DNA from: Peptococcaceae bacterium | Lineage (GTDB): Bacteria; Bacillota; Peptococcia; Peptococcales; Peptococcaceae | DNA length: 64,000 nt | NCBI GenBank assembly: GCA_017399005.1 | Contig: JAFQEO010000011.1 | Span: forward strand, 1-64,000 | Direction of reading: 5' to 3' | In this document: positions 15,214-51,635 of the stretch, in pieces | How positions within the stretch are numbered: position 1 is the first letter of the stretch | Layout: each line of letters starts with the position of its first letter | The notes under the pieces: generated by a model | Told to the model about the DNA's origin: nothing | What the model saw: only the letters and a program-made list of their open reading frames with translations | Databases searched by the model: none | Translations under genes and position numbers: made by a program

Positions 15214-15771
15214 TTATGCTCTTTCGATGTAGGAACCGTTTCTGGTATCAATACGCAGAACTTCGTCAACTTCGATGAACATAGGAACCTGAACTACAGC
15301 ACCTGTTTCCATTACAGCAGGTTTGTTACCGCCTGTTACAGTACCGCCTTTGATAACTGGTTCAGTTTCAACTACACGCAGTTCAACAGTGTTAGGCAGT
15401 TCTACTTCCATTACTTCGCCTTTGAAGTAGGTTACAACACATTCCATGTTTTCCAGCAGGAATTTTTCTGCACCGCTCATCTGAACTTCGTTCAGCATTT
15501 CCTGGTCAAAGCTTGTGTTGTCCATGAATACATAAGATTCACCGTCGAAATACAGATACTGCATCTGTCTGCGTTCCATGATAGCATCCTGGAATTTTTC
15601 ACCTGGACGGAATGTACGTTCAATGGATGCACCTGTTTTCAGGTTTTTGATTTTTGTTCTTACGAACGCTGCACCTTTCCCTGGTTTTACGTGCTGGAAG
15701 TCCACGATTTTACATGGGTCACCATCCAGTTCAATTGTTAAGCCTGTCTTGAAATCGCTTGTATCGATCAT
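15214..15771 (-). CDS. efp: Elongation factor P
   Basis: 185 residues, the normal length. It relieves ribosome stalling at proline runs. The N-terminal KOW-like domain carries KPGKGAAFV, with the lysine at about 32 at the tip that enters the peptidyl-transferase centre. The OB domains follow ([19 protein letters not shown]) and the end is NGSYIERA. No modification enzyme (EpmA, YmfI type) is seen nearby. It follows the Xaa-Pro peptidase gene by 12 bp, the classic pepP-efp pairing in Firmicutes. Confidence 0.97.
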
Positions 15772-15783
15772 ACAAAAATCCTC

Positions 15784-16857
15784 CTATAAAATAATCAGTT
15801 CTTTTGGTGAATGGGTTAAATTAATACAGCCATCCTTTTTCACGACAACCAGATCCTCTATTCTGACACCGCCCCAATTCGGCAGGTAAAGCCCCGGTTC
15901 CACTGTAATAACCGTGTTTTCCGGAATTACCTCCTCCGCTTTTGGAGAAAATCTAGGTTCTTCATGAATTTCAAGCCCTACGCTATGCCCGAGGCCATGC
16001 CCAAAAAAGGAACCATATCCCGCATCCTGAAACACATTCTGCGCCACTGCCTGGATTTCTTTTCCGGTAACCCCGGCTCTGATTGCCTGCAGTGCATCTT
16101 CCTGTGCTTTTCTTACTAGATTATAAACCGTTTCTTGCTTTTCGTCAACTTTTCCCAATGCAATTGTACGAGTAATATCAGAACAATATCCCTGATATAC
16201 ACATCCAAAGTCCATTGTGATAAAGTCGCCCACTTCCACTTTTTTATCGGTGGCCACACCGTGCGGCATGGAGGAGCGTTTTCCGGAAGCAACGATGGTT
16301 TCAAAACTTACGCCGGATGCCCCGCTGCGGCGCATCTGGAATTCCAGTTCCATAGCGATTTCCCGCTCGGTCATACCCGGTTTGATTACTTTCAGTACAT
16401 GGGCAAATGCCTCATCGCTGATTTCTTCAGCCCGTGCCAGCAGCGCAATCTCATCATCATCTTTCACACGGCGGATTTCATCTACAAAGCCTTTCAGCGG
16501 TGTAATTGCCTTGCGACGCACCTGATTAGCCAGCAGTTCAAATTCCTCCACAGTGATGCGGTCGCTTTCGATGCCCAGAGTAATTACTTCCAGGTCCTCC
16601 ATCAGCATACGCAGAGTCACCACAGGAGCATGATGCTGGAACTGTACCAGTTTACATCCTCTTGCCTGCTGCTGCGCCTGTTCGATATACCGGAAGTCTG
16701 TCATCAGATACACATTGCTCTGTGTTACCAGAACCCAGCCAAATGTGCCGGTAAAGCCGGTCAGATACTGACGATTTTCTTTACTTGTTACCAGAAAGCT
16801 GTCCAGGTCCAGCTCTTTCATTTTTGCCTGTATTTTTTCAATTCGTTTCCACTTCAT
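15784..16857 (-). CDS. pepP-like: Xaa-Pro aminopeptidase/dipeptidase (M24B)
   Basis: 357 residues. A creatinase-like N-terminal domain (1-125) precedes the pita-bread catalytic domain with metal ligands in FITMDFGCVYQGYCSDITRT (D and D), FFGHGLGHSVGLEIHEEP (H) and TVEPGLYLP (E). It cleaves the bond before or after proline in small peptides in the cytosol. It begins 4 bp after the aroQ stop and ends 12 bp before efp, so aroQ, this gene and efp form one operon, a common arrangement in low-GC bacteria. Confidence 0.93.
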   Translation of the reverse strand: MKWKRIEKIQAKMKELDLDSFLVTSKENRQYLTGFTGTFGWVLVTQSNVYLMTDFRYIEQAQQQARGCKLVQFQHHAPVVTLRMLMEDLEVITLGIESDRITVEEFELLANQVRRKAITPLKGFVDEIRRVKDDDEIALLARAEEISDEAFAHVLKVIKPGMTEREIAMELEFQMRRSGASGVSFETIVASGKRSSMPHGVATDKKVEVGDFITMDFGCVYQGYCSDITRTIALGKVDEKQETVYNLVRKAQEDALQAIRAGVTGKEIQAVAQNVFQDAGYGSFFGHGLGHSVGLEIHEEPRFSPKAEEVIPENTVITVEPGLYLPNWGGVRIEDLVVVKKDGCINLTHSPKELIIL

Positions 16858-16860
16858 GTC

Positions 16861-17292
16861 CTATTTCTCCATTTCCGCCACATAGTGTAATGCCAGCAGG
16901 TAGCTTTTCGCACCAAAGCCGCAGATCTGGCCCACACAAACCGGGGCAATCAGCGAGTTATGCCGGAACTCCTCTCTGGCATGAATATTGCTCAGATGGA
17001 TTTCAATGGTTGGAAGCTCCACTGCCTCAATGGCATCACGAATCGCTATACTGGTGTGTGTATATGCAGCTGCATTGAGAATCAGATACTGATATCTGCC
17101 CTTTGCCTTCTGGATTTGTTCTACCAGTTCGCCTTCATAGTTGGACTGCATAAAGTCCATCTCAATTCCCAGCTCCTCCGCACGCTGACGCATCATCTGC
17201 TCAATATCAGCCAGGGTAGTTGTGCCGTAAATTTCAGGCTTTCTGGTACCCAGCAGGTTCAGGTTTGGTCCATTTAATACTAAAACGCGCAA
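16861..17292 (-). CDS. aroQ: 3-Dehydroquinate dehydratase, type II
   Basis: About 143 residues. It makes 3-dehydroshikimate in the shikimate pathway as a dodecamer. [22 protein letters not shown] (with the catalytic Tyr), [21 protein letters not shown] and [14 protein letters not shown] are the type II hallmarks. I place the start at TTG 17292, since GAGGTG stands 6 nt before it and the family starts at the VLVLNGPN strand; the ATG at 17313 would add seven foreign residues. It is first gene of the aroQ-pepP-efp operon. Confidence 0.93.
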
Positions 17293-17473
17293 TATACTCA
17301 CCTCGCCTTTCATAATACCATATTATTCCTATCACATACAAGACGGAAAACCGGATTTATCCAATTATTTTACGGTTTTGCTTCTGTTTTTCTCTATTGT
17401 TTCTATAGTTTTATCGTTCTGCTTAACAATCTGTTTTCTGCATCGTAAACCACGCGATGCCCTTTATCGTTTT

Positions 17474-18817
17474 TTATGTGCCGCTGACAGAAATTTCGGC
17501 AATGCGGATTGTCGGAGCGCCCTGGCTTCCATAGAACACCAGATCATTGCCCACACCGCAGACTTTCTGCAGCAGCTGCTGGAAATTTCCCGCAATAGTG
17601 ATGCCGCGCACCGGGCGGCTAAACTTGCCGTGTTCAATTAAAATCCCCGATGCGCCAAAGGAAAAGTCGCCAGAAACCGGATTGGCCGTATGGGCACCTA
17701 AAATCTCGGTTACATAAATGCCGCGCTCCACCGCACCAATCAGCTGTTCCGGAGTCTGTTCACCAGCCTGCAGATAATAATTGCTGGTGCCGATATGCGG
17801 TGTCCCTTTATAGGAGCCTCGCATCCCGTTGCCAGTGGAAACCGTTCCGGCCTTTTCTGCCGAGAGGCAGTCATACAGATACTGTTTCAGTATGCCGTTT
17901 TCCAGTAAAACGGTGCGCTGCATAGCCGTACCTTCACCGTCAAATTCACCGGAGCCTAACCGGTTTGGCAAAGTACCGTCGTCAATTAGAGTCAGTTCCG
18001 GACTAGCCACCAGCTGCCCTGTTTTTCCAGCCAGAAATGATTTGTTTTTCAAGACTGCTTCACCGGAAAAACAACTGCTGATAATACCCAGAATCTGTGC
18101 AGTAATCAGAGGCTCCAGTACCAGATCCATCACACCGCTTTCCACAGGCGATGCCCCAAGCTGTTGAACTGCTCTTCGCCCGGCCATGCGGCCTGCCTTC
18201 TCTGCTGAAAGTTCACGCAGTGCAATACAGGAATGCATCCCGTAACCGCTCTGCTGTTCACCTTCTTTTTCACCGATTGCCAGACAGAACAGCCCGCAGT
18301 AGTTTCCCTGCTGATGCAGAGCTACACCATTGCTGTTCGCCAGCCACATCTCCACATCGCCCTCTTCATATCCGGACCGCTCAATGCGCTGCACCCGTTC
18401 ATCATAGTTCATGGCATACTCCGCCGCATCGCGGGCCAGGTCAATTTTTTCCTCAAGAGAGTGATTTCCCATATCCTCATCAAACAAGTCCAGTTTTGGA
18501 TACCGTGCACTGCGCTGTGCAAAACGGAGTGCCGGTTCTTCATCGTTGTAACTGCTGTTTGTAATGGCCTGGCTCACCATTTTGTCCAGTGCGCTGCTGC
18601 GAAAATCCGACGAAAAGGAAAAACCCTGCCGGTTTCCTTTGATTACACGAAGGCCAACGCCCTGGCTTTCCGACTGTTTAATCTGATCCAGGCTGTCATC
18701 CTTTATTTCTACTTCCAGGGCACGGTTTCGCACCACAAACAGCTCAGCATGGTCTGCACCCATCTGCCTTGCTTTCTGTAATCCTGTTTTTGCAAACTCC
18801 AGAAAATTATCTCCCAT
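17474..18817 (-). CDS. tldE: TldE/PmbA family metalloprotease partner
   Basis: About 447 residues; the ATG at 18817 is preferred because AAAGG lies 9 nt upstream. The TldE (PmbA) subunit pairs with TldD to form a cylinder that degrades unfolded peptides and matures peptides such as microcin B17. VEIKDDSLDQIKQSESQGVGLRV and the C-terminal VRGITIAGNFQQLL...VGNDL are typical. It lacks HExxxH, as TldE does. It is the last gene of the pseudopilus operon, 147 bp after a GspK-like gene, with tldD two genes upstream. Confidence 0.9.
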   Translation of the reverse strand: MGDNFLEFAKTGLQKARQMGADHAELFVVRNRALEVEIKDDSLDQIKQSESQGVGLRVIKGNRQGFSFSSDFRSSALDKMVSQAITNSSYNDEEPALRFAQRSARYPKLDLFDEDMGNHSLEEKIDLARDAAEYAMNYDERVQRIERSGYEEGDVEMWLANSNGVALHQQGNYCGLFCLAIGEKEGEQQSGYGMHSCIALRELSAEKAGRMAGRRAVQQLGASPVESGVMDLVLEPLITAQILGIISSCFSGEAVLKNKSFLAGKTGQLVASPELTLIDDGTLPNRLGSGEFDGEGTAMQRTVLLENGILKQYLYDCLSAEKAGTVSTGNGMRGSYKGTPHIGTSNYYLQAGEQTPEQLIGAVERGIYVTEILGAHTANPVSGDFSFGASGILIEHGKFSRPVRGITIAGNFQQLLQKVCGVGNDLVFYGSQGAPTIRIAEISVSGT

Positions 18818-18856
18818 TCTTTTCATCCTTTCTGCAAAAATTCTATCGTATCATGT

Positions 18857-18895
18857 GCTGTGTCTCATGCATCCGGCACGACACAGCATCTTTTT
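18857..18895 (+). repeat. Hairpin between the gspK-like gene and tldE
   Basis: GCTGTGTC (18857-18864) pairs with GACACAGC (18880-18887). The T-run follows on the plus strand, although no plus-strand gene lies upstream. On the mRNA strand it would form a stable hairpin in the leader before tldE, possibly for mRNA processing. Confidence 0.35.
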
Positions 18896-18964
18896 ATTTT
18901 CAGCTTATTTTCAGCGCTGCAACTTCAATATTGCAACGGTTATTCTGCGCATTGCGCTGTATGG

Positions 18965-19672
18965 TCATACACTGCGCGCTATTACCTGCACCCGGTAATC
19001 CATCGTACCGGTATAATTCTCTGCGATACAGTCACTGATTATCTGCTCTGCTCCATTAATCTGTCCGCTTACATAAACAGCCTCTGCCTCCAGCGGAGCC
19101 TCCACATTCAGGTTTCCACTGATATAAAGCACATCACAGTAAACGGGCTCCGTCACGGAGACATTCACCGGCTGATTAAAGCTATTCTGTATCGCCAGTG
19201 GTACATTTACAGACTGATTCAGTATCATCTGGCTTTCCCCGGTACAGTAAACCGATGGTTCCTCGATATCGTTCAGTGTCCCGGTCAGCTGCCATTCCGC
19301 CATATTGTCCCATGGCAGGCAGAGCAGACGCACACTGCCTTCAACCGTTCGCAGATAGCCGCCTGCATTAGAAACCGAAGAAACTGCAATCTCATTCGAT
19401 GCTTCACGCTGCTCCATCGTTACCTCGGCAAACCCGCTCCTTTTTTCTATCTGGAGCGGTTCCAGACTTCCATCGGTATCCAGCTGCTGCAGAGCCAGAT
19501 TCCATCCGCTATAAGCCAGCAATCGGCTCTGTTCAGTGTAAATAATGCCGTTATCTGCTTCATACTGACTGGTCAGAGTCTGCAGCAGAACACTGCCCCA
19601 CAGAAGCACGCAGGATAATAAAAACAGCGTAACCGGCAGAATAAAACCGCTTTGGCTGTTTTGTTTCTGCAT
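18965..19672 (-). CDS. GspK/PilX-like minor pseudopilin
   Basis: 235 residues. The N-terminus SQSGFILPVTLFLLSCVLLW is a type IV prepilin signal: Gly before the cleavage site, then a hydrophobic helix. It lacks Glu at position +5 (Val instead), a hallmark of the tip pseudopilins GspK and PilX. The rest is a variable beta-rich exported domain with little similarity. It begins 8 bp after tldD and so belongs to the operon. It probably caps a short pseudopilus. The assignment to GspK rests on the missing Glu+5 and on gene order. Confidence 0.7.
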   Translation of the reverse strand: MQKQNSQSGFILPVTLFLLSCVLLWGSVLLQTLTSQYEADNGIIYTEQSRLLAYSGWNLALQQLDTDGSLEPLQIEKRSGFAEVTMEQREASNEIAVSSVSNAGGYLRTVEGSVRLLCLPWDNMAEWQLTGTLNDIEEPSVYCTGESQMILNQSVNVPLAIQNSFNQPVNVSVTEPVYCDVLYISGNLNVEAPLEAEAVYVSGQINGAEQIISDCIAENYTGTMDYRVQVIARSV

Positions 19673-19679
19673 AATCGTT

Positions 19680-21071
19680 TTATCTCGCCTTTCCGGTGCC
19701 GCCTACAGTCAATCCGCGGATTTTCAACGTTGGCTGAGCATCTGCCACAGGGGCACTCTGTCCGTTTTTGCCACAGGTTCCAATGGCATAGCCAAAATCG
19801 TCGCCAACCATTTCCACATTGCGCAGGCTTTCCGGCCCGTTGCCCGCCAGAGTTGCACCCCGCACTGCTTTTGTGATTTTTCCGTTTTCGATTAAATACC
19901 CTTCGGCTACATCAAATACATAATCACCGTTTAAAGTATTAACCTGGCCGCCACCCATTCGTTTTACATAAAGCCCATATTCAGTGGATGCAATAATATC
20001 CTCCACTTTATCGGTACCCGGCGCAATATAGGTATTGCTCATGCGGGTTACCGGTTTTTCTTTATAAGATTCGCGCCGTCCGTTGCCGCTTAATGCAGCC
20101 CCCGTTTTCTGCGCGGTTTCGTAATCGTTCATGTACTGCTTCAGAATACCGTTTTCAATTAACACAGTTTTCTGCGCAGGATTCCCTTCATCATCATATC
20201 GATAGCTTCCGTATTTTCCTGGAATGGTTGCATCGTCTACCACAGTAATTTTTTCCGATGCCACCTTCTGACCGATTTTTCCGGCATAAGCCGACAGCCC
20301 TTTGCGTACCAGATCACCTTCCAGCCCGTGTCCACATGCTTCATGCACCATAGTGCCTCCGGCCTCACTGCTTAACACCACTGTCATCTGACCGGCAGGG
20401 CATGGTTCGGCATCCAGCAGAGTTAAGGCTCTCTGTGCCGATTCCCGACCCAGTTCAGCAGCCGATTTTTCTTCAAACAGTTCAAATCCGCAGGTGCCGC
20501 CCATAGAGGCAAACCCTGTCTGAATCTGTCCATCACGCTGGGCGATACTGTTGCATGCCAGACGGATACGCACCCGTTCATCCTCCACGCATGTACCAAG
20601 GCTATTGGCAATTGTTACATGCTGCACCACATCACTGTATCCTACCGACACCTGGCGAATCGCATCGCTCATAGCTCTAGCTTCCCGGTCAGCTGTGCGC
20701 AGCAGGCTGATTTTTTTATCAAACTCCACCGATTCCGGCCGTATTTTAACATCTATAGACTCTGCAGCTTTCGGCTGATGAAATTCCTGTACCGTTTCCT
20801 TCGGACCATTTTCCCGGGTAATCTGACCGGCCAGTTTTGCCATTTCCATACCGCTGTGAAACGATACATCATTGCTGTGCACATAAGATGTGCTTTCTCC
20901 AGCCATAACCCGAATCCCCATTCCCTGGTCGATACCGGTGTTGATTTTTTCTATTTTTCCATCTTCGCAGCTGATAGCAGTGCTTTCCTTCTGTTCGATA
21001 TAAATCTCTGCAAAATCAGCACCCGACCGCAGTGCGGTATTCAGAATCTCCTGTAATTCGTGTTTCTGCAT
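19680..21071 (-). CDS. tldD: TldD metalloprotease
   Basis: 463 residues, the active subunit of the TldD/TldE protease. TMVHEACGHGLEGD contains the HExxxH zinc motif (near residue 236) and the C-terminal GTCGKNGQSAPVADAQPTL holds the third-ligand Cys region. The N-terminal DFAEIYIEQKESTAISCEDGK matches the family. It lies inside a pseudopilin operon, after the GspJ-like gene (13 bp) and before the GspK-like gene, an unusual place that suggests a role in processing secreted or pilus peptides. Confidence 0.95.
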   Translation of the reverse strand: MQKHELQEILNTALRSGADFAEIYIEQKESTAISCEDGKIEKINTGIDQGMGIRVMAGESTSYVHSNDVSFHSGMEMAKLAGQITRENGPKETVQEFHQPKAAESIDVKIRPESVEFDKKISLLRTADREARAMSDAIRQVSVGYSDVVQHVTIANSLGTCVEDERVRIRLACNSIAQRDGQIQTGFASMGGTCGFELFEEKSAAELGRESAQRALTLLDAEPCPAGQMTVVLSSEAGGTMVHEACGHGLEGDLVRKGLSAYAGKIGQKVASEKITVVDDATIPGKYGSYRYDDEGNPAQKTVLIENGILKQYMNDYETAQKTGAALSGNGRRESYKEKPVTRMSNTYIAPGTDKVEDIIASTEYGLYVKRMGGGQVNTLNGDYVFDVAEGYLIENGKITKAVRGATLAGNGPESLRNVEMVGDDFGYAIGTCGKNGQSAPVADAQPTLKIRGLTVGGTGKAR

Positions 21072-21084
21072 AGGGCATTCCTCC

Positions 21085-21684
21085 TTATAAATACGCTGTG
21101 CCGGCCAGGCGGATAATCTGTTCCTGTTTCAGTGTCCGGTTTTTCCAGACACCGGTTATTTTTACATGAACAGCATAAACATCTTCTGCCTTCTGTGCAG
21201 GCAGCCCCTGCCGGTTCAGACAGGATATCGTCAGCGTATCTATAAAATTAGCAATCGGCTGACGCACCCTTTGAGTACTTTCGAGACGATAGAGAATTTT
21301 TCCTTCCAGAGCATAAAAATGTTCTTCGGCCTGCCCATCTTTTCCAAGAGACCAGGCAACCGTTTCCTTTTCGTGATAGCCTGACAAAAGCGTGATGCTT
21401 TCCTGTTCCCATGTTAAAATTCCCGTACTCCGCCCAATATCCTGCGCCATACTTTCTATAGCAATCAGCAGATTATCCTCCAGTTCCTCAAGAGCACTGC
21501 GATTCTGATACTGTTCTGACCAGAAGAAAAAACACTGTAGAAAAAACGTGAACAGCATAGAGGTCAGGCATAAAACCACCAGCACCTCCGGCAGCGTAAA
21601 TCCGCCCTGTCGATTTTTATTCCGCAGATGTTTCCTCGCCTGCGTAATAAAAGGTCCAGCTCTGCGTGTTTGTCTGATTTGCAT
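21085..21684 (-). CDS. GspJ/PilW-like minor pseudopilin
   Basis: Up to 199 residues. RQGGFTLPEVLVVLCLTS is a prepilin cleavage motif with Glu+5, followed by a long helix and a soluble domain. The ATG at 21684 gives a leader of 28 residues, long for the family, and overlaps the previous gene by 68 bp. A shorter leader could begin at CTG near 21630 with GAGGA just upstream, so the true start is uncertain. Size and position after GspI-like suggest GspJ or ComGF. Confidence 0.7.
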   Translation of the reverse strand: MQIRQTRRAGPFITQARKHLRNKNRQGGFTLPEVLVVLCLTSMLFTFFLQCFFFWSEQYQNRSALEELEDNLLIAIESMAQDIGRSTGILTWEQESITLLSGYHEKETVAWSLGKDGQAEEHFYALEGKILYRLESTQRVRQPIANFIDTLTISCLNRQGLPAQKAEDVYAVHVKITGVWKNRTLKQEQIIRLAGTAYL

Positions 21685-21997
21685 GTGTGATAGTCAGCTC
21701 CTGTTCTGTGAGAAATAATCCGGCCGGTCTGGTTTCCTTCTGTACTGACCAGCCTTCCGGAAGTTCCGGTTCAATACCGGCCAGTACCGACTGGGCAATC
21801 AGAACGGCCTGCCGGTTCTCTGCGCTTCTAGCATGGCTCTGACTGCTCAGCACACTCCACTGCCCGGCACTGTGCAGCAGAAGTGCACAAATTACCAGAC
21901 TTATCAGAAGTTCCGGCAGGGTAAATCCTCTGTTATCCCGTTGGCGCTTTGGTGATGCGTGTACGCCCTGTCTGATAATAATACACATAGCGCTCAT
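21617..21997 (-). CDS. GspI/PilV-like minor pseudopilin
   Basis: 126 residues. DNRGFTLPELLISLVICALLL is a clear type IV prepilin signal with Glu+5. AAAGGAG lies 3 nt before the first ATG and 12 nt before a second, so the leader is 23 or 20 residues. The soluble part is short, as in GspI/ComGE. It overlaps both neighbours in an operon of pseudopilins. Confidence 0.7.
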   Translation of the reverse strand: MSAMCIIIRQGVHASPKRQRDNRGFTLPELLISLVICALLLHSAGQWSVLSSQSHARSAENRQAVLIAQSVLAGIEPELPEGWSVQKETRPAGLFLTEQELTITHANQTNTQSWTFYYAGEETSAE

Positions 21998-22373
21998 GTT
22001 CTCCTTTCTGCAGCAGAATATGCCCGTTTTTATTGATGGATTTATCAGGCTGAATGGTCAGAGTTGCCGCCGAAAGCTTATCCACATAGCAGGGCAGTGT
22101 CTGATAACGCAGCGTCTGGTTGATTTTGGGATAGGCAATTTTATACCGGTACGGCTGCCTGTCGCGATAAAAGGTAACAACCGTTTGTCTTTGTTCTCTG
22201 GCTGCCTCACGCTGCGCCCATCGGATATCCCGATGAATCTGCTGGGCAGCTGCATCCAGCTGAGCCTGATGCCAGCCGTCCAGAAGCGAAGGAACCGCCA
22301 TACTGCAAAGCAGACCGGTTAACAGAAGCACCACAAGCATTTCCACCAGCGTAAAGCCTTTCTGTTTTCTCAT
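21933..22373 (-). CDS. GspH/FimT-like pseudopilin
   Basis: 146 residues. KQKGFTLVEMLVVLLLTGLL is a canonical prepilin N-terminus, followed by RDIRWAQREAAREQRQTVVTFY, the alpha-to-beta junction usual in GspH/FimT. The rest is a beta-rich domain ending in YYYQTGRTRITKAPTG. It corresponds in position to ComGD. It directly follows the platform gene, where the major pilin gene (comGC/gspG) would be expected, but its sequence is of the minor type. Confidence 0.8.
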   Translation of the reverse strand: MRKQKGFTLVEMLVVLLLTGLLCSMAVPSLLDGWHQAQLDAAAQQIHRDIRWAQREAAREQRQTVVTFYRDRQPYRYKIAYPKINQTLRYQTLPCYVDKLSAATLTIQPDKSINKNGHILLQKGEHERYVYYYQTGRTRITKAPTG

Positions 22374-22411
22374 ATCCTTCTGCCTCCTTGCACCACTTCA
22401 TCTGCAACCTG

Positions 22412-23491
22412 TTACAGCAGATACTGATAAGACTGCACCATAGGCAGAAACAGGCTTCCCGCCATCAGCAGAATTCCGATGCCAAGAATCAGCACAAAAC
22501 CCGGCTCCAGAAGGCTGGTCATACGCTGAAGGCGCTGTTGAACCTGCTGCTGATAATACTGACTCAGCTGAATCAGAGTTTCTGGCAGAGCTCCGGTCTG
22601 TTCACTGACAGCCAGCATCTGCCTTGCCATAGACGGAACAAAAGTACAGTTTCGAATGGCTGCGTCGAATGAGTATCCTTCCTGCAGTGCAGCTTCCAGC
22701 ATCTGAAGCTCCTGCGCAAAAAGGCTTCGACGGTAAATCTGACGCACAGCTTCCAGACAGGAGGACAGCAGCATTCCGCTGGAAAGCATCAGCCCCATCG
22801 CCTGACCAATCTGTACAAACCAGTACTGCTGATACAGTTTGCCAGCCACAGGAAGATGCAGAACAGCTGTTGTAATTCGCTTCTGCCAGACGGGAATCGA
22901 GCGGATATGCCGCCATATACAGAAAAGAATCAGGCATCCTGCCGCAAGCAGACTGCCTGCCAGCATCCAGTTTTTTCTGACCCATCCGCTGACCTGAATC
23001 AGATGTTGCGTCATAGCCGGCAACTCCGCCTGAAATGTTTCATAGGTCTGTACTACAGTAGGAACCACAAAACAGAACATGGCGCCAAAAGCTGCCAGCA
23101 TCAGAAGCAACAGCACCGCAGGATAAAACATGGCGGAAAACAGCATCTGTCTGGTTCGATTCTGTCGTTCAAAATAATCGGCTGCCTGTTCCATGGCTTT
23201 CTGCATAGTGCCGTTCTGTTCACCGGCCAGCACAAATTCCAGAAACACCGGCGAATATCCGATATCGCTTTGTTTTAATGCTTCTGCCATAGTCTGCCCC
23301 TGCTGCAGCGATTCGCTGATTTTCAGCAGAAATCTGGCGCATATAGCCGGATGAATCTCACTGCCCACCAGCTGAACAGCCCCGGGAAGCGGCAAACCGC
23401 CTGCCAGTGCAAAAGAAAGCTGCTGGCATAAAAAGCGCTGCTGCTGTAAAGAAAGTTTTTTCTTAAATCGAAATGTATTTTTAATTTTCAT
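22412..23491 (-). CDS. Type II secretion/type IV pilus platform protein GspF/PilC
   Basis: 359 residues. The inner-membrane platform protein passes the ATPase motion to the growing pseudopilus. Two GspF domains are seen, each with cytoplasmic helices and the motif SFALAGGLPL near residue 28 and SSGMLLSSCLEAVRQ near 235. There are about three membrane segments (LLLMLAAFGAMFCFVVPTVV and MTSLLEPGFVLILGIGILLM). It overlaps the ATPase gene by 4 bp, so the two are coupled. Confidence 0.92.
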   Translation of the reverse strand: MKIKNTFRFKKKLSLQQQRFLCQQLSFALAGGLPLPGAVQLVGSEIHPAICARFLLKISESLQQGQTMAEALKQSDIGYSPVFLEFVLAGEQNGTMQKAMEQAADYFERQNRTRQMLFSAMFYPAVLLLLMLAAFGAMFCFVVPTVVQTYETFQAELPAMTQHLIQVSGWVRKNWMLAGSLLAAGCLILFCIWRHIRSIPVWQKRITTAVLHLPVAGKLYQQYWFVQIGQAMGLMLSSGMLLSSCLEAVRQIYRRSLFAQELQMLEAALQEGYSFDAAIRNCTFVPSMARQMLAVSEQTGALPETLIQLSQYYQQQVQQRLQRMTSLLEPGFVLILGIGILLMAGSLFLPMVQSYQYLL

Positions 23492-24585
23492 AACTCAGGT
23501 CCCAGCACAGCATCCAGTTCCGCCTGTACTGTTTTTCCTTCCTCTGCTTTTCTGCGTCCATCCTCCGCCAGCGACAGATAGCCGGCTGCAATCTGCTCCT
23601 GTGCGTCCAGAAAATTATCGTAGCGGCTTATCAGCTGCTTTACATTCCGGTCACAGACCAGCACCTCCTGAATGGCAATGCGGCCTCGTACCGAAGCATC
23701 CTGGCTGCACCGCACAAGGCGCTGTGCTACCACACCGTTTAAACAGGAGGCCAGCAGATGCGGTGCAATACCCATCTCCACCATACGTTTTACGGCTCCA
23801 ATGGCATTACCGGTATGCAGAGAAGCCAGCACCAGATGTCCTGTATAGGCAAGCCGTATTGCAATTTCTGCCGACTCTAAATCACGGATTTCTCCCACCA
23901 TGATAATATCCGGGTCCTGGCGCAGAACACTGCGTAATCCACGGGCAAATGTCAGCCCTGTCCTCTCGTTAATCTGCACCTGATTAATCCCCGGCATCTC
24001 ATATTCTACCGGGTCCTCCAGTGTTACAATGTTCTGCCCCCGGCTCTGCAAAGCAGCCAGCATACTGTAAAGCGTGGTAGTTTTTCCGCTTCCGGTAGGT
24101 CCGCAAACTAAAATCATACCACCGGGCATTTTCAAAAGAGTCTGCACCTTTTTCAGATTTTCTTCGGAAAATCCAAGCTGTTCCAGCGTCATCATCTGTT
24201 CCCTCTGCCCTAAAATGCGAAGTACCAGTTTTTCGCCCTGATACAGCGGCAGGCTGGAAATACGCAAATCATAAAGCTGTTCCTGCCAGACAACCGCCAG
24301 ATGACCATCCTGCGGCAGACGTTTTTCGGTAATATCCATTTCTGCCATCACTTTCAGACGATTTAAAATAAGATTCTGTAAATCCGATTGCAGCACGGCC
24401 TGTTTTTTCAGTTGTCCGTCACATCGAAACCGGATAACTAGCCCTTCCGTGCCGGGCTCCAGATGAATATCGCTGGCATTCTGTTTTAACGCCTCCTGCA
24501 AAAGCCTGTTAATTACCCCAGCAGCAGTATGTTCTTCGATACAATCATCATCAATACGATAACTTCTGTGTTGTACTGGTACCAT
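23488..24585 (-). CDS. GspE/PilB assembly ATPase
   Basis: About 365 residues from the ATG at 24585, where GGAAGGGGG stands just upstream; a longer frame to 24714 runs into the leader hairpin. Walker A is GPTGSGKTTTLYSML, the Asp box ends in LEDPVEYEM, Walker B is DIIMVGEIRD and the His box ends in LVLASLHTGNA. It hexamerises to power pseudopilus assembly. The protein is short (no N1 domain) as in ComGA. The four-Cys zinc motif of longer PilB proteins is absent. First gene of the operon. Confidence 0.93.
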   Translation of the reverse strand: MVPVQHRSYRIDDDCIEEHTAAGVINRLLQEALKQNASDIHLEPGTEGLVIRFRCDGQLKKQAVLQSDLQNLILNRLKVMAEMDITEKRLPQDGHLAVVWQEQLYDLRISSLPLYQGEKLVLRILGQREQMMTLEQLGFSEENLKKVQTLLKMPGGMILVCGPTGSGKTTTLYSMLAALQSRGQNIVTLEDPVEYEMPGINQVQINERTGLTFARGLRSVLRQDPDIIMVGEIRDLESAEIAIRLAYTGHLVLASLHTGNAIGAVKRMVEMGIAPHLLASCLNGVVAQRLVRCSQDASVRGRIAIQEVLVCDRNVKQLISRYDNFLDAQEQIAAGYLSLAEDGRRKAEEGKTVQAELDAVLGPEL

Positions 24586-24678
24586 AGAATCCCCCTTCCT
24601 GTTGTTTGCAGAAATTACCATAGCACCAATCTTCTTACATAGCAAGAAAATACTTTCGACAAATTTCGCCTGTACACA

Positions 24679-24729
24679 AAACGAGCAGAGATTTGTGCTG
24701 CCAGATTCAGACACATTCTCTGCTCGTTT
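24679..24729 (-). promoter_or_regulatory. Leader hairpin upstream of the pilus ATPase gene
   Basis: AAACGAGCAGAGA pairs perfectly over 13 bp with its complement, and the loop adds TGTG/CACA. On the minus strand it is followed by TTTTGTG. It lies about 95 bp before the ATPase start and could be a terminator for the upstream gene (ending 24827) or an attenuator for the operon. I see no c-di-GMP riboswitch core in it. Confidence 0.5.
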
Positions 24730-24826: not shown

Positions 24827-25150
24827 TTATACTTCCGGCAAATAATACCCCAGTATCAGTTCCAGTGCCTCCTCGGCATGCAGACTGTCATGAATATTTC
24901 CTGCACAACGCAACTCCAGAAGTGCCGCATCCCCTTTCGCCAGCACATCGGCTTTTATCTGAATAATCTGCATATCTCTGCGGCTGCGAAACCGGATCCA
25001 GTGATACCGGTCATCATGGTCCACAACAAAAAAGATATCCTTTGCCTTCAATAACTGCTTTAATTTGTCCAGTTCTTTACGTCCTTCGGTAGAACCGGCA
25101 CCGCCAGTCAGCATATTCCAGACCTGTTCATCGGGATTGGTAAGAATCAT
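24827..25150 (-). CDS. Hypothetical protein of 107 residues
   Basis: The start at ATG 25150 (MILTNPDEQVWN) is preferred, with AAGGAG 10 nt upstream; the open frame extends to a GTG at 25171. Charged and soluble, with a central RYHWIRFRSRRDMQIIQI and an acidic C-terminus AEEALELILGYYLPEV. No signal peptide, membrane span or known motif is seen. It precedes the pseudopilus operon on the same strand, but a hairpin separates them, so linkage is uncertain. Confidence 0.5.
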   Translation of the reverse strand: MILTNPDEQVWNMLTGGAGSTEGRKELDKLKQLLKAKDIFFVVDHDDRYHWIRFRSRRDMQIIQIKADVLAKGDAALLELRCAGNIHDSLHAEEALELILGYYLPEV

Positions 25151-25614
25151 CGTATCTGCACTCCTTTTCACTTCAGCATTTATTAATTTTATATTTGTTC
25201 CACTGCCAGTATCGTTTCATAAATCTACAAATCATTATAGCATACTTTTATTCTCTGTAAACGATATTCCATGTTCTGCTCTAATAAACACCATGCTGTA
25301 TAGAAACTGTTTCAATTTCGTATATTTATGCAGAACATCCTCATCACAAGTACACAACCTGTTTTTGTCCACTTGCTATACACAATCAACATTTGTTTAC
25401 TATATGCGGACTCTTATGCAATTTGTTCATACTACAAAAACAATTGTGTATAATTGATAGAATCGTCTTTTTTATTCAAAAAATAAAGCAGACTGTAATC
25501 TGTCGAAAAAAATATATAAATATTAAAAAAATGCAAAAACGCTCTTTCTTTTTCCTGTATCCTGTATTATACTAGAGAGGTTGTAAAATTATCATTTTAG
25601 AGGAGGACTTTTTC
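25151..25614 (+). promoter_or_regulatory. Upstream region of the symporter gene
   Basis: This 464-bp gap holds no convincing gene. A perfect 10-bp inverted repeat, TATACACAAT (25377-25386) and ATTGTGTATA (25443-25452), overlaps a TATAAT at 25449-25454 with a weak TTCATA 17 bp upstream. A transcript from there would have a leader of about 150 nt before the GTG start. A second -10-like TATACT stands near 25570. A regulator binding the two half-sites is plausible. Confidence 0.4.
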
Positions 25615-47339: not shown

Positions 47340-50300
47340 TTACCAGGCATTCTCCAGCATGAGTTTAATTCGATTCAGCTGATTGGCTCTGCTTGCTCCC
47401 GGGTCATAATCGACTGCAATCATATTCGCCTGCGGATGCATTCGTCGAATCTGTTTCATAATGCCTTTGCCAACAATATGATTCGGCAGACAGCCAAAAG
47501 GCTGTACACAGACAATATTTTTCACGTTATGTTCCAGCAGATCTATAATTTCTCCTGCTAAAAACCAGCCTTCTCCACATTGATTTCCAGCCTGAAGGAC
47601 TGGTTTTGCTTTTTCCTGAAGCGCAAACACGGCGGAAGGAGCCTCAAAATGACGGCTTTGTTTCAGCATTGCAAATACAGGCTCCTGAATGCGCTTCAGC
47701 AGATATAAACCGGTTTTAGAAAGCAATGCTGTGCGTTTAGAGCCGCCCAGATATCGCGCACGAAAAATACTGTTGGAAAAGCAATATTCCAGAAAAATCA
47801 TCAAATCAGGCATAACAACCTCCGCCCCCTGTTCCTCAAGGAGCTCCGCAAGATTATTATTAGCCATCGGCATAAATTTTACAAGTACCTCACCCACGAT
47901 TCCAACACGAGGTTTTTTCAATGTTTCGTGAATCGCAATCCTGTCAAAATCCTGAATCATATTCTGACAGTTCTGATAAAATGCTTTCATGGAATGTTGA
48001 AGACCTTTTTGCGAAAGCTGCTGCATACAGATACTGCTCCATCTCTGATGCAGCTTTTGAATACTTCCGTTTACGATTTCATACGGCCTCATTCGATACA
48101 CCATACGCATCAGCAAATCCCCATAAATAATACCTTGTACACATTTTACAAGAAGCTCCGGTGTAAAATAAAAGCCTTCGTTTTTTTCCATGCCGTTTGC
48201 ATTTACCGATATTACTGGAATATACCCGTAACCAGCGTCGTGCAAAGCTTTCCGAATAAAGCCGACATAATTCGAGGCACGGCATCCTCCACCGGTCTGC
48301 ACCATCGCTACTGCAAGATGGTTTGTATCATATTCACCGGATTGCACCGCATCAATAATCTGTCCTGTCACAATCGTAGCCGGATAACAGGCGTCATTGT
48401 TCACATATTTCAGCCCCATGTCTACAGCACGCTGGTTTTCATTTTGCATCATTACAAGACGATACCCGCAACTTTGCATCGCAGCTTCAAGAAACGGAAA
48501 ATGAAATGGAGCCATATTGGTACACAGAATGGTATACTGCTCTTTCTTCATTTTTTTCGTGAACTGCACACGTTCATAGTTCAGACTGCAGCCTGTTTCG
48601 TTTGCTGATTTTGTATTTCGCATATGCATCGCCGCAATCAGAGAGCGTACTCGAATCCGTGCTGCACCAAGATTATTTACCTCATCAATTTTTAATAGTG
48701 TATACATTTTTCCGGCCGCAGCAAGAATCTCCTGTACCTGATCAATCGTTACTGCATCCAGACCGCAGCCAAACGAATTCAGCTGAATGTATTCCAGATT
48801 CTTCTGATGGCTGACAAATTCAGCAGCTCTGTATAAACGAGAATGATAGGTCCACTGATTGGTTACACGAAGCCGCATATCACTTCGGCCTTTGTCAGCA
48901 ATACTGTCCTCGGATAATACCGCAAAGCCATAGCTTTGTATCATCTCCGGAATTCCATGATTAATTTCTGGATCAATATGATAGGGTCTGCCTGCCAGAA
49001 CAATGCCTTTACACTGATGTTCCTCCATCCACTGCAATGCGTTTCTGCCTTCATTCTGAATATCCCTGCGATATTGCTGAAGCTCTCTCCATGCAAGTTC
49101 CGCCGCATGTTTTACAAGATTCTTCACAATGCCGAATTCTTCACACATGATTTCGCAAAGCCGTTTGGATAAAGTCTCTTTGTCGGCAAAGGAAAGAAAC
49201 GGATTCAGGTAACGAATCTGCTGTTTTTCAAGATTCTCTACGTTATTTTTAATATTTTCCGGATATGAAATAACCATTGGGCAATTAAACTGATTCTGCG
49301 CATGCACATCCTCTTTGCACTCATACGTCACACATGGATAAAAGATTGTATCCACATGATTTCGAATCAGCCATTCGATATGTCCATGAGCTAGCTTTGC
49401 AGGATAACACTCCGACTCACTTGGAATACTGTCCATCCCGGCCTGAAGTATCTGCTGACTGGAAAAAGGCGATAATACAACACGAAAACCAAGTTCCCGA
49501 AAAAATACCGCCCAGAACGGATAGTTTTCATACATATTCAAAACACGCGGAATCCCGATAGTTCCTCGTGCGGCTTCCTCTTTTGCAAGTGGTTTATACT
49601 GAAACAGTCGTTTTTGTTTATATTGAAACAGATTCGGCGGCTTCATCATGTTTTTTCTATCCAACGCAAAATCCATAGAATAGTTTGTCTCGGCACCTTT
49701 TTCACATCGATTGCCAGATGTATACGTTCTTCCATCAGAAAATTCTGTAACGGTCAGTCTGCAATGATTAGAACAGCGCGGACAACGAACGGTTTTCGTC
49801 TGATACTTCAGTGTAAGAATTTCATTTATCGAAAGCATTCCGGATTGCTGCCTCTTGCGCTCTTTTGCAATCAAAGCTGCGCCAAAGGCACCCATTAATC
49901 CTGCAATATCAGGACGAATTACCTGATTGCCGGATAATAATTCCATACTTCGCAATACCGCATTGTTATAAAATGTACCACCCTGTACAACAACAGTATT
50001 TCCAAGCGATGCGGTATCTGTCAGTTTCAAAACCTTGAAAAGCGCATTTTTGATTACGGAATAGGCCAGACCCGCCGCGATATTTTCAACCGTTACGCCT
50101 TCTTTTTGTGCCTGTTTTACATTCGAATTCATAAATACAGTACATCGGGTTCCCAGATCCACCGGTTTCTCGGCTTTGCAGGCAAGCTCCGCAAAAGCCT
50201 CTGCCGTGTACCCCAAAGAATTCGCAAAAGTTTCCAGAAACGAACCACAGCCGGAAGAACACGCCTCATTCAGTATAATCGAATCCACATATCCATTTTT

Positions 50301-51635
50301 AATTTTGATGCACTTCATATCCTGGCCGCCGATATCCAGCACACAGTCAACATCCGGTGCAAAAAAACGGGCCGCATAATAATGTGCGATGGTTTCCACT
50401 TCGCCCTCATCCAGCTTCAGTGCATGTTTCATCAAAGATTCTCCGTAACCGGTCGCACAGCTCGAGGCAATGACTGCTTTTTCCGGAAGGAGTCTGCTTA
50501 TTTCCTGAAATGCTTCCTGTATAACCGCGAGCAGTTCCCCCTTATTACTACTGTAAAAGGTATACAGCAACTCCCCCTTTTCCGAAATCAAAGCCAGTTT
50601 TGTTGTAGTAGACCCTGCATCAATTCCAAGATAAACATTCCCCTCATATTTTTCCAGAGGATATACAGCTAATTGATATCGGCTTTGCCGTTCTATAAAT
50701 CCCTCATATTCCTGATTCGATGCAAAAAGTGCCGGCAGACAGTTTATTGCCGAAAAATCTCCATCCAGATGTTTTAGCCGCTCTAATACATCTTCCAAAA
50801 CATAGCTATCTCCCTCCCGGCTTCGCAAAGCTGTACCATACGCCGCTATCAGATGGGCATTTTCCGGAACGATTACTTTTTTCGGCTGTATCGTGCGAAT
50901 AAAGGCCTCCCGCAATTCAGAAAGAAAATACAGCGGTCCACCCAGAAAGGCAACATTTCCAGAAATTTTACGCCCGCAGGCAAGTCCACTAATAGTCTGA
51001 TTTACAACAGCCTGAAAAATACTTGCTGCTAAATCAGAACGAGAAACACCATCATTTACTAACGGCTGTATATCACTTTTTGCAAAAACACCACATCTGG
51101 CTGCTATTGGATAAAGTTCCTTATACGTTTTCGCACATTCGTTTAACGCTTCTGCATCCATCTGCAACAGAGACGCCATCTGATCAATAAAAGCGCCCGT
51201 TCCTCCGGCACAAATCCCGTTCATACGCTGTTCCAGACCATTTTTGAGAAAAATAATTTTAGCATCTTCACCGCCAAGTTCAATAATAACATCGGTTTCC
51301 GGCTCAACCTGACGCATTGCATTGGTTACCGCTACAACTTCCTGAATAAAATTAAGGTGCAGTTTTCCGGATAATGTCAGACCTCCGCTGCCGGTTATGG
51401 AAATTGTACAGCGATTGCATCCTGTCTGCTGCCGGATATCTCGAAGCATCATTGCAACTGTCTCTCTGATATTGGCATAATGCCGCTGATAATTCCGATA
51501 ACAGATTTCATTCTGTTCATTTAGCACAATCATTTTTACCGTTGTTGATCCAATATCAATCCCGACTGCATATTCCTGCTGTGTCATTATTGTCTCTATC
51601 ATGATAGGCATTACACTCTGCTGATTGTTATCCAT
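47340..51635 (-). CDS. Giant 2-hydroxyacyl-CoA dehydratase-type activase (BadF/BcrA tandem, DUF2229)
   Basis: 1431 residues, AAGGAG 8 nt before the ATG. Two ASKHA ATPase domains in tandem: VGIDIGSTTVKMIVL (about 24) with ICAGGTGAFIDQM and AARCGVFAKSD, and LGIDAGSTTTKLALI (about 338) with EACSSGCGSFLET and GTRCTVFMNSN; the Cys residues suit a bridging [4Fe-4S] cluster as in HgdC. A Cys motif CPRCSNHCRL and a DUF2229 domain (about 700-900) follow, then a dehydratase-like C-terminal half with ACYPATIVTGQ. Activases of this family energise electrons by ATP to start radical dehydrations. The large fused form is common in gut anaerobes, but its substrate is not established. Confidence 0.8.
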   Translation of the reverse strand: MDNNQQSVMPIMIETIMTQQEYAVGIDIGSTTVKMIVLNEQNEICYRNYQRHYANIRETVAMMLRDIRQQTGCNRCTISITGSGGLTLSGKLHLNFIQEVVAVTNAMRQVEPETDVIIELGGEDAKIIFLKNGLEQRMNGICAGGTGAFIDQMASLLQMDAEALNECAKTYKELYPIAARCGVFAKSDIQPLVNDGVSRSDLAASIFQAVVNQTISGLACGRKISGNVAFLGGPLYFLSELREAFIRTIQPKKVIVPENAHLIAAYGTALRSREGDSYVLEDVLERLKHLDGDFSAINCLPALFASNQEYEGFIERQSRYQLAVYPLEKYEGNVYLGIDAGSTTTKLALISEKGELLYTFYSSNKGELLAVIQEAFQEISRLLPEKAVIASSCATGYGESLMKHALKLDEGEVETIAHYYAARFFAPDVDCVLDIGGQDMKCIKIKNGYVDSIILNEACSSGCGSFLETFANSLGYTAEAFAELACKAEKPVDLGTRCTVFMNSNVKQAQKEGVTVENIAAGLAYSVIKNALFKVLKLTDTASLGNTVVVQGGTFYNNAVLRSMELLSGNQVIRPDIAGLMGAFGAALIAKERKRQQSGMLSINEILTLKYQTKTVRCPRCSNHCRLTVTEFSDGRTYTSGNRCEKGAETNYSMDFALDRKNMMKPPNLFQYKQKRLFQYKPLAKEEAARGTIGIPRVLNMYENYPFWAVFFRELGFRVVLSPFSSQQILQAGMDSIPSESECYPAKLAHGHIEWLIRNHVDTIFYPCVTYECKEDVHAQNQFNCPMVISYPENIKNNVENLEKQQIRYLNPFLSFADKETLSKRLCEIMCEEFGIVKNLVKHAAELAWRELQQYRRDIQNEGRNALQWMEEHQCKGIVLAGRPYHIDPEINHGIPEMIQSYGFAVLSEDSIADKGRSDMRLRVTNQWTYHSRLYRAAEFVSHQKNLEYIQLNSFGCGLDAVTIDQVQEILAAAGKMYTLLKIDEVNNLGAARIRVRSLIAAMHMRNTKSANETGCSLNYERVQFTKKMKKEQYTILCTNMAPFHFPFLEAAMQSCGYRLVMMQNENQRAVDMGLKYVNNDACYPATIVTGQIIDAVQSGEYDTNHLAVAMVQTGGGCRASNYVGFIRKALHDAGYGYIPVISVNANGMEKNEGFYFTPELLVKCVQGIIYGDLLMRMVYRMRPYEIVNGSIQKLHQRWSSICMQQLSQKGLQHSMKAFYQNCQNMIQDFDRIAIHETLKKPRVGIVGEVLVKFMPMANNNLAELLEEQGAEVVMPDLMIFLEYCFSNSIFRARYLGGSKRTALLSKTGLYLLKRIQEPVFAMLKQSRHFEAPSAVFALQEKAKPVLQAGNQCGEGWFLAGEIIDLLEHNVKNIVCVQPFGCLPNHIVGKGIMKQIRRMHPQANMIAVDYDPGASRANQLNRIKLMLENAW

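Follow-up and report, generated by a model that had tools for sequence, protein, structure and literature searches.

The window (the whole 64,000-nucleotide stretch of DNA analysed) carries, all on the minus strand and in this order, genes for an assembly ATPase, a platform protein and H-, I- and J-like pilins, followed by tldD, the gene for a K-like pilin and tldE (Table 1). This is the order and strand that a sequence-only reading of the locus had given, and both the open reading frames and the profile matches bear it out. All reading frames of the operon are intact. The platform and ATPase genes overlap by 4 bp and the H, I and J genes, whose products carry an N_methyl motif above or near the cut-off, also overlap; the remaining spacers measure 13 bp (J to tldD), 7 bp (tldD to K), 138 bp (K to tldE) and 160 bp (tldE to aroQ). 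In four congeners there is instead a 4-bp overlap between tldD and the K gene, and the gap between K and tldE ranges from 18 to 138 bp among congeners. As the spacing is tight and partly overlapping, a single transcript is likely in the window's genus; promoter and terminator scans of the locus gave counts at chance level. Comparison of the congeners revealed no conserved small ORF in the gaps of the operon. The slot of the major pilin, described in the sequence-only reading as empty, holds exactly 38 bp between the platform gene and the H-like gene. Upstream of the ATPase gene, positions 24827–25171 encode a protein of 114 amino acids without family matches, which is found in the same place in congeners (63% identical in locus L048 and 83% in L049).

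Table 1. Features of the pilus and tldDE locus and its conserved flank in the window
Feature	Position	Strand	Evidence or remark
GspE/PilB/ComGA-type assembly ATPase; GTG start called, shorter start possible	23488..24714	-	PF00437 8.4e-114
Platform protein, GspF/PilC/ComGB type (T2SSF)	22412..23491	-	PF00482 1.9e-44
38-bp gap, slot of the major pilin gene in other genera	22374..22411		Pilin in slot in L052, L072, L073, L055, L062
ComGD/GspH-like minor pilin	21933..22373	-	N_methyl 3.7e-9; best NCBIfam ComGD 61.3 bits, below cut-off of 70
GspI-like minor pilin	21617..21997	-	N_methyl 1.9e-6
GspJ/ComGF-like minor pilin; start may be internal	21085..21684	-	N_methyl 3.2e-4, just below cut-off
tldD	19680..21071	-	PF01523/19290/19289
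PilX/GspK-like minor pilin without Glu5 (SG|FILPVT)	18965..19672	-	Family profile matches PilX proteins in related operons
tldE (PmbA)	17474..18826	-	PF19289 8.2e-78
aroQ, flank of conserved block	16861..17313	-	PF01220 4.1e-63
pepP-like Xaa-Pro peptidase gene, flank of conserved block	15784..16857	-	ORF; orthologue in same place in relatives; name from sequence and neighbourhood
efp, flank of conserved block	15214..15771	-	ORF; orthologue in same place in relatives

Predicted products of tldD, tldE and the K-like gene

TldD has three PmbA_TldD domains and scores 372.6 bits against the TldD model. Residues 243–248 (HEACGH) form an HExxxH zinc motif, with Cys433 as the likely third ligand; H243, E244, H248 and C433 are invariant in an alignment of TldD with 16 homologues, and these residues match the zinc ligands of E. 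coli TldD/E (PMC5810440). TldE also has PmbA_TldD domains and by alignment does not contain the HExxxH motif. The pair thus shares with the heterodimeric metalloprotease TldD/TldE (PmbA) of E. coli its three-domain architecture, an HExxxH motif in TldD only and an invariant cysteine near the C-terminus of TldD (PMC5810440), although here the genes lie inside a pilus operon with a pilin gene between them. Judged by these motifs the two proteins belong to TldD/E, and they would be expected to have its peptidase activity.

Neither Pfam nor NCBIfam gives a match to the K-like protein on its own. In hhalign, a profile of the nine-member K family does align with PilX-like pilins from related operons (probability 97, E 8e-11). 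GspK-type pilins lack Glu5, as does the K-like protein here.

The major pilin and the class of pilus

Beyond H, I and J the genome encodes one more N_methyl protein, on contig 9 (C9:59085), with matches to GspG (3.6e-11) and ComGC (1.2e-8) that both fall below the curated cut-offs. Its gene stands alone, encodes a GFTLVEL motif and adjoins a gene assigned by Pfam to aldehyde dehydrogenase. The orthologous pilin beside the same dehydrogenase gene is present in four congeners (G036, G039, G040 and G041), by which we rejected contamination as its source, and two further genera of the window's family have related pilins that also stand alone. A pilin in the operon slot is retained in genus g2 (L052), where it is present besides the stand-alone type, and in g3 and g6 (L072 and L073); the empty slot is common to the window's genus and g5 (L054). 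The sequence-only reading had left two options, that the pilin was encoded elsewhere or that the GspH-like protein served as the main subunit. The former is borne out by the ComGC/GspG-like gene on another contig. The latter was rejected given this conserved stand-alone pilin: the scores of the H-like protein place it with the ComGD-type minor pilins, and it need not be the main subunit.

A search of the rest of the genome for comGC, pilD and a secretin had also been proposed. It returned the ComGC/GspG-like pilin, at the sub-threshold scores given above, and one prepilin peptidase (C36:19455; PF01478 1.3e-15); no secretin (PF00263) was matched in the genome, which is rated 99.8% complete, and none scored over the cut-off in 46 genomes of the host's class. 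A type II secretion reading therefore fails, since without a secretin there is no type II secretion route. ComEA and ComEC are both present. The only T2SSE protein over the cut-off in the whole genome is the operon's ATPase, and hence there is no PilT retraction ATPase. PilM was rejected, as the sole match to its profile is EutJ, and PilN and PilO are absent from the locus, where they were sought.

The gene inventory is that of a ComG-type competence pilus: an ATPase and a platform protein, a ComGC/GspG-like pilin, a prepilin peptidase and ComEA with ComEC. A type IVa pilus would call for PilM, PilN, PilO and PilT, the first and last of which are missing from the genome and the other two from the locus; PilM/N/O have been tied specifically to type IVa pili (PMC6916266). 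With the ComG pilus of monoderm Bacillota (comGA–comGG) the locus shares a single ATPase, a single platform protein and overlapping minor-pilin genes, as well as the absence of PilM, PilT and a secretin and the placing of ComEA and ComEC elsewhere in the genome; it differs in having its major pilin gene outside the operon and tldD and tldE interspersed among the minor pilin genes. The likely ancestral form is the type IVa operon of monoderm Clostridia (pilB, pilC, pilA, pilD, minor pilins, pilX, pilM, pilN, pilO), which in related families and orders still stands directly upstream of tldD, whereas here PilM, PilN, PilO and PilT are wanting as described. Loci L081, L082 and L083, from congeners and a sister genus, represent a second locus with genes for a platform protein and a PilT-like ATPase, which is absent from the window's genome.

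The host had been assumed to be a member of the Negativicutes. This was mistaken: the nearest named records are Peptococcaceae MAGs from the ruminant gut (TldD 87 and 84% identical), and PilQ was found in all Negativicutes examined in published work (PMC5007114), so the lack of a secretin in the genome and the class argues against a Negativicute. The host is a Gram-positive gut bacterium of the Peptococcaceae type within the Bacillota.

The tldDE neighbourhood in related genomes

The sequence-only reading would have been undermined had the arrangement occurred in no other genome. The same operon order was seen again in a second genus of the family and in all congeners with an assembled locus. 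We surveyed 97 non-redundant tldD loci, annotated by blastp against a small labelled reference set; labels are therefore approximate, and several of the genomes are incomplete MAGs. With that reading of the counts, aroQ, pepP or efp lies downstream of tldE in 66 of the 70 testable loci. For the upstream side of tldD, a strict count finds pilus genes in 37 of 68 loci and a wide count in 45 of them. In other families full pilus operons with PilX, PilM, PilN and PilO stand directly upstream, and relatives of Moorella, Heliobacterium, Pelotomaculum and Desulforamulus, like other families of the order, have a pilus operon that ends at or nearly at tldD on its upstream side. Only PilT, PilD and ComFB genes occur in this position in other families of the class, and some loci (e.g. 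L112 and L113) have no pilus operon, their upstream genes being aroC, aroK and aroB. The TldD tree broadly follows taxonomy and pilus linkage requires at least 11 changes on it, from which we conclude that the linkage is old and was repeatedly gained or lost. The position of TldD/E beside pilus genes is thus old synteny of Clostridia-grade Bacillota. A literature search for tldD or pmbA together with type IV pili yielded no title or abstract describing a link.

tldD directly adjoins tldE in 49 of 76 loci. Elsewhere the two are separated by an endonuclease III-like, transporter or prepilin-peptidase-like gene or, in the window's family, by a K-like pilin gene, which lies between them in all three genera that have both. 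The K-like and prepilin-peptidase-like cases indicate that pilus genes entered the slot more than once. The prepilin-peptidase-like gene was seen in four loci of Desulfallas/Desulfotruncus/Desulfoscipio type (L108, L110, L120 and L135), and the endonuclease III-like (HhH-GPD) gene in L056, L058, L059, L065, L066 and L067, from several other families of the class. In Desulfotomaculum-type loci (L118, L130, L137, L145, L151, L159 and others) tldD follows a pilus operon and there is no same-strand tldE within eight genes.

The two parts also occur singly. In two genomes of the window's family (G033 and G043) the pilus operon is contiguous and leads directly into pepP–efp; the locus lacks tldD, tldE and aroQ, and neither genome encodes TldD/E. 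The PilMN-, PilO- and K-type genes of this operon were recognised by position, size and alignment and have no Pfam match. In L072 and L073 tldD, tldE and aroQ are gone from between otherwise conserved neighbours and the K-type pilin gene adjoins pepP. Conversely, in G034, a 100% complete genome of the family, tldDE adjoins an M29 aminopeptidase gene and no platform protein (T2SSF) is matched, and family f11 of the same class (nine genomes) has T2SSF matches and no TldD/E. Since each of these lineages keeps one part alone, neither needs the other, and tldDE keeps to aroQ–pepP–efp more faithfully than to pilus genes.

Relationship between TldD/E and the pilus

We consider it probable that the locus is a ComG-type competence pilus operon set in an old neighbourhood, and that TldD/E is a separate, general cytosolic peptidase present there by inheritance. 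The old block of Clostridia-grade Bacillota would have comprised aro genes, a pilus operon, tldD, tldE, aroQ, pepP, efp and spoIIIA, the ancestral pilus operon being a complete type IVa set with the major pilin, PilM, PilN and PilO whose end lay close to tldD on its upstream side. The PilX/GspK-like pilin gene would have come to stand between tldD and tldE in the family of the window; in its genus, PilM/N/O and PilT would have disappeared and the major pilin would be encoded at another place, so that tldD and tldE remained within a minimal set. The ATPase and platform protein may polymerise the distant ComGC/GspG-like pilin, presumably processed by the sole prepilin peptidase, on a priming tip made up of H, I, J and K, and the pilus would pass DNA to ComEA and ComEC. 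TldD/E would act separately as a cytosolic zinc peptidase trimming unfolded peptides, as in E. coli, and would share the transcript because the gene order was inherited. Against this explanation stand a linkage that extends across several classes, so that selection for co-regulation is possible, and the entry of pilus genes into the tldD–tldE slot on more than one occasion. The arrangement is a variant of known parts, not a new system, and is mostly ordinary; it does provide a clear case of a pilus operon with its major pilin at another site and PilM/N/O shed, in which a housekeeping peptidase is still embedded.

The best rival is a quality-control role for pilins, in which TldD/E would take part in pilus biogenesis by degrading prepilin leaders after their cleavage or unfolded pilins that have stalled. 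Such a role would account for the long linkage to pilus operons (the wide count above) and for the tight coupling to the K-like pilin, both in the 4-bp overlap of the four congeners and in the occupation of the tldD–tldE slot by pilus genes in two lineages; the E. coli enzyme, moreover, takes unfolded peptides independently of their sequence (PMC5810440). However, pilus operons in G033 and G043 and platform genes across f11 do without TldD/E, G034 has tldDE without a platform gene, and TldD/E is widespread in bacteria and archaea without pilus linkage (PMC5810440), so that we regard the role as unlikely. It is slightly more doubtful that TldD/E is a dedicated quality-control peptidase of competence and type IV pili in Clostridia-grade Bacillota, clearing prepilin leaders or failed pilins, with the operon tying its production to that of the priming pilin. 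There may be a direct pilus role, but it is unsupported; if the peptidase did serve the pilus, a protease that is widely conserved, and whose function is still described as elusive, would gain a physiological role in these bacteria.

The operon might instead be decaying, its major pilin lost, its minor pilins remnants and the stand-alone pilin part of something else. The empty slot and the absence of PilM and PilT from the genome would fit; however, the intact frames, the conservation of both the arrangement and the stand-alone pilin across the genus, the presence of ComEA, ComEC and a prepilin peptidase, and the fact that the operon's ATPase is the only pilus ATPase in the genome make this very unlikely. 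Least probable is the proposal of the sequence-only reading that the protease acts in the maturation or clearance of a small peptide secreted through a pseudopilus machine: although E. coli TldD/E cuts the leader of the modified microcin B17 precursor (PMC5810440), the gaps hold no conserved small ORF and that between K and tldE varies widely among congeners, the secretin needed for type II secretion is missing, no peptide-modifying gene was noticed in the operon, and within the family tldDE and the pilus are each kept alone, tldDE being truer to aroQ–pepP–efp.

Elsewhere in the window, positions 47340–51635 encode a protein of 1431 amino acids with BadF/BcrAD ATPase and DUF2229 domains (CoA enzyme activase type).
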